Source: Bacteroidetes bacterium HGW-Bacteroidetes-17 (GTDB taxonomy: Bacteria; Bacteroidota; Bacteroidia; Bacteroidales; GCA-2711565). From it: a DNA stretch of 32,870 bases. A program made the translations under genes and the position numbers. The notes beneath the pieces are model-generated. The model worked only from the letters and a program-made list of their open reading frames with translations. It was not told the DNA's origin and made no database searches. The stretch is taken from NCBI GenBank assembly GCA_002840985.1, contig PHDM01000026.1, positions 1-32,870 on the forward strand, written 5' to 3'. Positions 14,527 through 32,057 of this stretch are shown here, in pieces; positions within the stretch are counted from its first letter, which is position 1, and every line of letters starts with the position of its first letter.

Positions 14527-15162
14527 TTACCTTATAAAATTGGTCACTTCTTTCTTTTCTTTTTTAGGAGCCTCGATTGTGTTTTTTGTGGCTTCTTTCA
14601 TTTTTAACAGCCATGCCATATTTTTTCCCAAAACACGCATAATTTGTTTACCTTCTATATCTTGCTCAACTTCTCCGGCATTTCTACCATGAATGATGTT
14701 CCAATAATTTGAAGTGGCAATAATCATTTCAGCATAGGCGATATAATGATACAAACCATCAAGGGTAGCTGAACCGCCCGATCGTCGTACGGCAACTACT
14801 GCCGCGCCAACCTTATGGCGGAACAGGTTGCCATTTGCACCGCTCACATAAAATAACCGATCCAGAAAACTTTTCATAGTGCCTGCAATACCTGAATAAT
14901 AAACAGGCGAGCCCAGAATGATACCATCAGCTTCTTTAATTTGCTGAATCCATACGTTTAAATCATCCGTCTTTAAACTGCATTTTTCATCTTTATTTAC
15001 AGCACATTTACCACATGCCGTGCAGCCATGAATCATTTTATGGCCGATATGCAGGATTTCAAAATCAATTCCTGCCGATATAAGCTCATCTCCAACCATA
15101 TTCAAGGCATGGAAAGTATTCCCTTCCTTATTTGGACTTCCATTTATTGCAATTACTTTCAT
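14527..15162 (-). CDS. Flavodoxin-fold NAD(P)H-dependent oxidoreductase with a cysteine cluster
   Basis: A 211-residue FMN-binding reductase. The opening KVIAINGSPNKEGNT (2-16) is the FMN-phosphate loop, and GSPVYYSGIAGTMKSFLDR (84-102) is the second flavin-contacting segment. Between them HGCTACGKC and Cys61 give the pattern C47-x2-C50-x2-C53-x7-C61. This resembles the compact cysteine motif that holds a 4Fe-4S cluster in the archaeal iron-sulfur flavoprotein Isf. The start at 15162 is chosen because the family begins at MKVIAINGSP; an in-frame ATG further upstream (15228) would add 22 unrelated residues. The C-terminal 25 residues are lysine-rich. It is probably co-transcribed with the downstream methyltransferase. 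Confidence 0.82.
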   Translation of the reverse strand: MKVIAINGSPNKEGNTFHALNMVGDELISAGIDFEILHIGHKMIHGCTACGKCAVNKDEKCSLKTDDLNVWIQQIKEADGIILGSPVYYSGIAGTMKSFLDRLFYVSGANGNLFRHKVGAAVVAVRRSGGSATLDGLYHYIAYAEMIIATSNYWNIIHGRNAGEVEQDIEGKQIMRVLGKNMAWLLKMKEATKNTIEAPKKEKKEVTNFIR

Positions 15163-15275
15163 TATTTTGAGTTTTATCCGTATTGATTGTAAAATACTAC
15201 TTAACATGAGTTCTATATAAGAAAACATTAAAATACAGACTTCCTATATCATAATCGTTTTAATAAATTAATATA

Positions 15276-15348
15276 TAAGACGTTAGACTTTAGATATTAG
15301 ACAAAAGAAGTTTAATCCATATTTTAACTTCTAATATCTAACGTCTTA
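15276..15348. repeat. Inverted element built of TCTAAnn heptads, copy 1
   Basis: Terminal arms TAAGACGTTAGA (15276-15287) and TCTAACGTCTTA (15337-15348) are perfect 12-bp inverted repeats. Each arm continues in 7-base units: the right arm reads TCTAATA, TCTAACG, TCTTA, and the complement of the left arm reads TCTAATA, TCTAAAG, TCTAACG, TCTTA. A second copy lies at 31870-31977, and similarity runs on for about 30 bases past the right arm in both. It lies in the 272-base gap before the flavodoxin gene and after the amidase gene; no gene is seen in that gap. Confidence 0.75.
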
Positions 15349-15434
15349 ATAGCTCAAAAGGCTAAATTTCAGACATCCTGAACCAGTTTCATAAGAAACG
15401 CTTAGATCGAACTGAGGTTCCATAATAAAAACTT

Positions 15435-31797: not shown

Positions 31798-31869
31798 TTA
31801 AAGTTCAGATCCGTATTTGATTTAGAAGGCACTAAAATAAAAGCTCCTTAATTGTTTTAAATTAAGATA

Positions 31870-31977
31870 TAAGACGTTAAACTCTGGATATTAGACAAAA
31901 GTTAACCTACTAACTACTAACTACTGTCTACTATATTCTGTATGTCTATAGTCTAACTTCTAATATCTAACGTCTTA
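31870..31977. repeat. Inverted element built of TCTAAnn heptads, copy 2
   Basis: Related to the element at 15276-15348. The left end reads TAAGACGTTAA and the right end TTCTAATATCTAACGTCTTA, again inverted. The inner part is longer: from 31910 to 31977 the sequence runs in ten successive 7-base units (CTAACTA, CTAACTA, CTGTCTA, CTATATT, CTGTATG, TCTATAG, TCTAACT, TCTAATA, TCTAACG, TCTTA). Similarity to copy 1 continues for about 30 bases after the right end. It sits between the 3' ends of purC and dnaB in a 260-base gap with no other feature. Confidence 0.75.
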
Positions 31978-32057
31978 TTAGCCCAATGGGATAAATATCA
32001 GATAGGTTGAATACTGTTTAAATATCGAATCCAGATTTGAATTAGTTCTATTCTTAT

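Follow-up and report, generated by a model that had tools for sequence, protein, structure and literature searches.

A transposase-free IS982-type MITE with a hypervariable core of 7-nt repeats in a Bacteroidetes genome

The window, that is, the whole stretch of DNA analysed here, comprises 32,870 nucleotides of contig PHDM01000026.1 of Bacteroidetes bacterium HGW-Bacteroidetes-17 (genome G000). It carries two copies of an inverted, repeat-rich element. Copy 1 lies between two genes: it is located 15 nt past the end of an amidase gene, and 40 nt separate it from the likely start of an FMN-reductase gene, which it precedes. The Pfam match of the reductase begins at residue 23 of the open reading frame. 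The reading frame of the reductase extends into the element. Its first base, at 15228, belongs to an in-frame ATG contributed by the end of the MITE, and a start there would add 22 codons upstream of the likely start at 15162. The features of the two copies are as follows.

15203–15419, minus strand: complete 217-nt MITE, copy 1, with ends AAC...GTT; the empty site is in C69 of genome G001
15401–15419, minus strand: C-type terminal inverted repeat (TIR) AACCTCAGTTCGATCTAAG, which fits the TIR pattern with 0 mismatches
15203–15221, plus strand: G-type TIR AACATGAGTTCTATATAAG, which fits the pattern with 2 mismatches
15276–15299, plus strand: inner inverted arm with heptads TAAGACG TTAGACT TTAGATA TTA
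15325–15348, plus strand: the other inner inverted arm, with heptads TCTAATA TCTAACG TCTTA
15198–15202, no strand: left flank TACTT, one side of a 4–5 bp target duplication; TCCTT is ancestral in G001
15420–15424, no strand: right flank CCATA, which completes the target duplication; the empty site has CCTT
31800–32047 (approximate borders), minus strand: copy 2, with degenerate outer ends and CTACTAA heptads inside

Copy 1 contains no open reading frame of 80 amino acids and is a short element without a transposase gene; a transposase is likewise absent from every copy inspected. Searches of the element against Rfam and for tRNA genes gave no match. The first-pass annotation had placed an element at 15254–15390, bounded by perfect 12-bp inverted ends. 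A perfect 12-bp inverted repeat, TAAGACGTTAGA / TCTAACGTCTTA, is indeed present at 15276–15287 / 15337–15348, within a pair of 24-nt arms that both contain TCTAANN heptads. When all copies are printed out, these 12-mers prove to be the inner arms of copy 1 and not its ends, and the element reaches from 15203 to 15419. Conserved outer arms of about 70–85 nt flank the 12-mers on each side and terminate in diverged inverted repeats, one reading AACCTCAGTTCGATCTAAG and the opposite one AACGTGAGTTCGATATAAG. These repeats of about 19 nt, AAC(C/G)T(C/G)AGTTCGAT(A/C)TAAG, are the true ends. The second copy announced 16.6 kb away is found at about 31800–32047, with inverted arms near 31870–31978. It is not perfect, because one of its inner arms is TAAGACGTTAAA.

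The element is not confined to these two copies. In the window, TCTAANNTCTAA occurs 5 times, always within the two copies (0.08 expected). A count of TAAGACGTTAGA throughout G000, proposed in the first-pass annotation, gave 24 occurrences and none for a reversed control, and the TIR pattern at up to 3 mismatches gave 63 matches against 3 for its reversed control. By profile search, G000 has at least 41 copies with common ends (23 with both arms, 14 with the left arm only, and 4 with the right arm only) and G001, of the same genus, has at least 13; these counts are lower bounds because the search covered loci fetched by TIR, 12-mer, or heptad patterns. The initial description of a dispersed, inverted, heptad-built element holds.

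Mobility of the element is evident from empty sites and target duplications. G001 matches the window up to 15204 and resumes at 15419; on the G001 sequence these matches have 7 bases in common. The filled site of copy 1 reads ..ATACTACTT, then the element from AACATGAG to CTGAGGTT, then CCATAATAAAAAC; the empty site in G001 reads ..ATACTCCTTAATAAAAAC. The target duplication of copy 1 is 4–5 bp long and imperfect, with one substitution on each side. Another copy of G000, in C178, also has an empty site in G001, and its 5-bp duplication is AAAGT. Copy 2 is common to G000 and G001 and is thus older. Target-site duplications, which had been suggested as a check, were sought in 27 of the 32 two-ended copies (5 were dropped since the right end is missing). 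Flanking repeats of at least 4 bp occur in 16 of the 27 (shuffled mean 3.0; none of 2000 shuffles had as many) and repeats of at least 5 bp in 9 (shuffled mean 0.5), and the remaining 11 copies lack an exact duplication of 4 bp or more. The first-pass annotation had set the element apart from a plain transposon-derived repeat. That distinction falls, as the element is marked as transposon-derived by its inverted termini, its target duplications, and the empty sites.

The copies are unevenly distributed relative to genes. Among 39 copies of G000 (2 of the 41 were left unclassed, and gene-pair classes are based on mechanical open reading frames), 14 lie between convergent genes as compared with 36 of 317 adjacent pairs (p 2e-4). 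Only 1 of the 39 lies between divergent genes as compared with 37 of 317 (p 0.10), a weak avoidance. The excess between convergent genes is what one might see if the element were a conserved RNA hairpin or transcript-end structure, whose inner arms are kept since the transcript must fold. A long RNA hairpin had also been proposed in the first-pass annotation, and for copy 1 it is possible: its inner 73 nt fold at −23.8 kcal/mol (z −6.2), and the whole element has a z of −4.6. Across copies, however, pairing is not accompanied by compensatory conservation. In the 32 two-ended copies 339 of 382 cells pair, against a mean of 341 when arms are shuffled between copies, and double compensatory changes number 1 against 1.5 under shuffling. 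No RNAalifold consensus structure was obtained for 46 left or 31 right outer arms, and neither a terminator-like site nor an Rfam family was detected. Since the compensatory-pairing test is negative, an RNA hairpin is not supported as the reason for the arms, and we regard it as very unlikely.

In other bacteria, the same TIR is found on elements of about 1,030–1,070 bp that carry IS982 transposases. These are the following.

G047: IS982 element with the same TIR, 1,032 bp; an in-frame stop is present
L247: IS982 element with the same TIR, 1,072 bp; NF033520, E 5.5e-72; flanks ATTTT/ATTTT
L264: IS982 element with the same TIR, 1,035 bp; NF033520, E 9e-75; flanks AAAAT/AAAAT

In G011 and G039 the TIR lies beside IS982 fragments. 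Three further IS982 loci were considered as carriers of the TIR, those of G005 of the same genus (L093), G024 (L094), and G028 (L092); each is a complete transposase locus without the TIR at up to 3 mismatches. An IS982 transposase had 0 matches in G000 itself, an absence that weighs little because the assembly is 87% complete and consists of 182 contigs. From the ends shared with IS982 elements, the duplications, and the empty sites, it follows that the element is an IS982-type MITE. The common TIRs could also stem from a different DDE family with similar ends. For example, ISPg3, which has a similar TIR, is placed under IS5 in the Porphyromonas gingivalis table among the excerpts of PMC4596501. 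An IS982-family IS195 is named in P. gingivalis in excerpts of PMC13305171.

The TIR pattern is present in at least 116 stretches of a database of genome contigs. Among the matches listed, most are from Bacteroidota groups, and Calditrichaeota, Poribacteria, and others are represented as well. At 80 loci examined there are 37 TIR pairs 60–500 nt apart, of which 21 have flanking repeats of at least 4 bp (a count without a shuffled control). None of these 37 other MITE-like elements contains a period-7 array; therefore, MITEs of this kind are widespread, whereas among the elements examined a heptad core is peculiar to the present lineage. The same or related ends also occur on elements of other builds. 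G009, of the same order, has 82 TIR matches and harbours a different MITE-like family of large size, whose ends AACCTGAGTTCGATATAAT are related; one pair of them (L075) is about 297 nt apart. In G003, of the same genus, L058 and L067 carry the same TIRs and are very short, at about 70 and 167 nt, and the interior of L067 has octamer-like repeats ATTGTTCA.

The core between the arms is built of 7-nt units, among them TCTAANN, TCTTGAA/TCTTGTG, CTACTAA, GTTATGA, GAAGTTT, and the TTAGCTATTGGCAT type. These are tandem 7-nt units in intergenic DNA, the hallmark of a heptamer SSR. The heptads are in register across copies, and the periodicity does not vanish beyond the first two: in the 23 of 32 two-ended copies with a usable anchor, 79 of the 144 TCT triplets that precede the right anchor fall in one phase of 7, where 20.6 are expected if uniform. 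Rough regular expressions were used to class the left modules of the core; 14 of 49 are 'other' and some labelled 'rightlike' (L010, L013) are in fact the common left type, and these class counts carry no weight in the conclusions. Within the heptad arrays of the L001, L016, L029, L039, and L147 cores there is a GC-rich palindrome like CCCTGCCTGCGGCCGGCAGG; in L147 it occurs three times, once slightly changed, and resembles a nested repeat. L006 and L016 start abruptly at TAAGACG next to a preceding reading frame (AAAATAAGACG), and thus the inner arm may supply a stop codon TAA.

Orthologous insertions reveal how the core changes. In four pairs of G000 and G001 insertions with good flanks (L001/L086, L007/L145, L021/L143, L008/L147), the flanks are 88–94% identical whereas the cores are 30–48% identical, and thus the core turns over fast. 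A further pair, L020/L141, is orthologous on one side, and its left flank, which aligns at only 46%, is the reason for its omission from the flank range. Core types differ between the two genomes at one and the same insertion site. The left part of the L007 core reads as the usual right array in reverse complement, as arm-to-arm recombination or template switching might produce. Slippage together with copy-to-copy exchange accounts most simply for the fast turnover. Slippage growth is the best of the three origins that had been offered for the heptads in the first-pass annotation, although the length differences between orthologous cores are not clean multiples of 7.

The strict TCT/AGA phase would also be expected of an array of binding sites at 7-bp spacing for a host or transposase protein. 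There is no candidate protein, unit sequences vary between copies and at orthologous insertions, and the wholesale differences between orthologous cores speak against a fixed site. It is reasoned that such an array is highly improbable.

A broader question is whether the heptads are primary. Cyanobacterial STRR are heptamer repeats, that is, 7-nt tandem units that are intergenic and variable in length. A similar intergenic heptamer system, like STRR and other heptamer SSRs, might operate independently in this lineage and the MITE be a mere carrier. TTAGANN arrays and inverted arrays do occur outside MITEs (e.g., L149, L154, L155), period-7 arrays of other motifs are present in unselected stretches, and the other MITE-like elements with the same TIR are, as noted, free of them. 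In the non-coding part (57 kb) of 400 kb of unselected G000 DNA, periods 7 and 8 stand out, with 10 and 7 arrays respectively, under a looser threshold than the strict one, which yielded few arrays. Other periods have 0–3 arrays, apart from the multiples 14, 16, 21, and 24; smaller samples of six other genomes have 0–3 arrays at periods 7 and 8. Such a system leaves the outer arms, ends, duplications, and empty site of copy 1 unexplained, and it complements rather than replaces the MITE reading. We hold it to be an appreciable, if tentative, possibility. As for the non-MITE 7-nt arrays themselves, those of L155, L149, L154, L140, and L136, in intergenic DNA of G000 and G001, often adjoin gene ends. 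Inverted TTAGANN...NNTCTAA arrays are seen outside any MITE, and other non-MITE motifs are GTTACTG in L136, TAGTTAG in L156, and AACTCCA in L157.

Taken as a whole, the element is very probably an IS982-type MITE, moved in trans by an IS982-family transposase and carrying a slippage-prone heptamer core that is swapped between copies. Direct observation covers the ends and their presence on IS982 elements of other genomes, the copy number, the duplications, and both empty sites. The identity of the moving transposase we infer, since none was found in the 87%-complete G000. The transposase, acting in trans, would recognise the ends of about 19 nt and paste the element into an A/T-rich target of 4–5 bp, which would thereby become duplicated. 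The core between TAAGACGTTAGA and TCTAACGTCTTA is a hypervariable heptamer array, most likely gaining and losing 7-nt steps by replication slippage or unequal recombination. Judging from the orthologous insertions, it is most likely also swapped between copies via gene conversion or arm-to-arm recombination. No sign of a conserved function of the array or hairpin was found. A bolder and rather unlikely extension is that heptamer arrays are seeded at gene boundaries with the MITE as their vehicle, the inverted inner arms serving as a recombination cassette and a lineage-specific process producing 7- and 8-nt units of many sequences. As part of this extension, unrelated heptad cores would be swapped or flipped among copies while outer arms and flanks stay fixed.

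Why 7-base units are in excess in bacteria is a known puzzle; slippage is the sole explanation given in the excerpts of PMC4692102 and PMC4679880. Here, 7-base arrays changing inside a mobile element can be dated from empty sites and from orthologous insertions that are about 90% identical. In addition, a MITE family is added whose ends are common to many IS982-type MITEs, found here across Bacteroidota and further phyla.

This is a new IS982-type MITE family with a hypervariable heptamer core, ordinary in kind and unusual in its core; an IS982-type MITE with such a core is not described in the excerpts of PMC9769881, PMC4596501, PMC4692102, and PMC4679880. Its nearest relatives by type are described in the same excerpts. 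MITECca01 of Cardinium is an IS982-derived MITE of about 240 bp (PMC9769881) and resembles the present element in its IS982-family ends, similar length, lack of transposase, mostly intergenic location, and high copy number. In contrast to the present case, its parental IS is in the same genome, and a heptamer core is not mentioned in those excerpts. BrickBuilt of P. gingivalis is a minisatellite inside a MITE (PMC4596501), and like the present element it is an intergenic MITE with a tandem-repeat core and filled and empty sites between strains. It has 23-nt units and IS5-type ends GAGACCTTTGCA, whereas here the units are 7 nt and the ends AACNTNAGTTCGAT; with its 23-nt unit and GAGACC-type ends set against 7-nt units and AACNTNAG ends, membership in BrickBuilt was rejected. 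The end ACGTGAGTTCGATATAA of MITE239 of P. gingivalis, in the table of PMC4596501, matches the G-type end, and heptads are not reported for it in the excerpts. The core itself is closest to heptamer SSRs, such as GGGAATC in Xanthomonas and GGGGA(T/C)T in Nostoc (excerpts of PMC4692102) and TAACTGA in Beggiatoaceae, Cyanobacteria, and Bacteroidetes (excerpts of PMC4679880), with which it shares tandem 7-nt units, intergenic location, and variable length. As described there, those SSRs have one fixed unit, whereas the present arrays have several units, many of them housed as an inverted pair in a mobile element.
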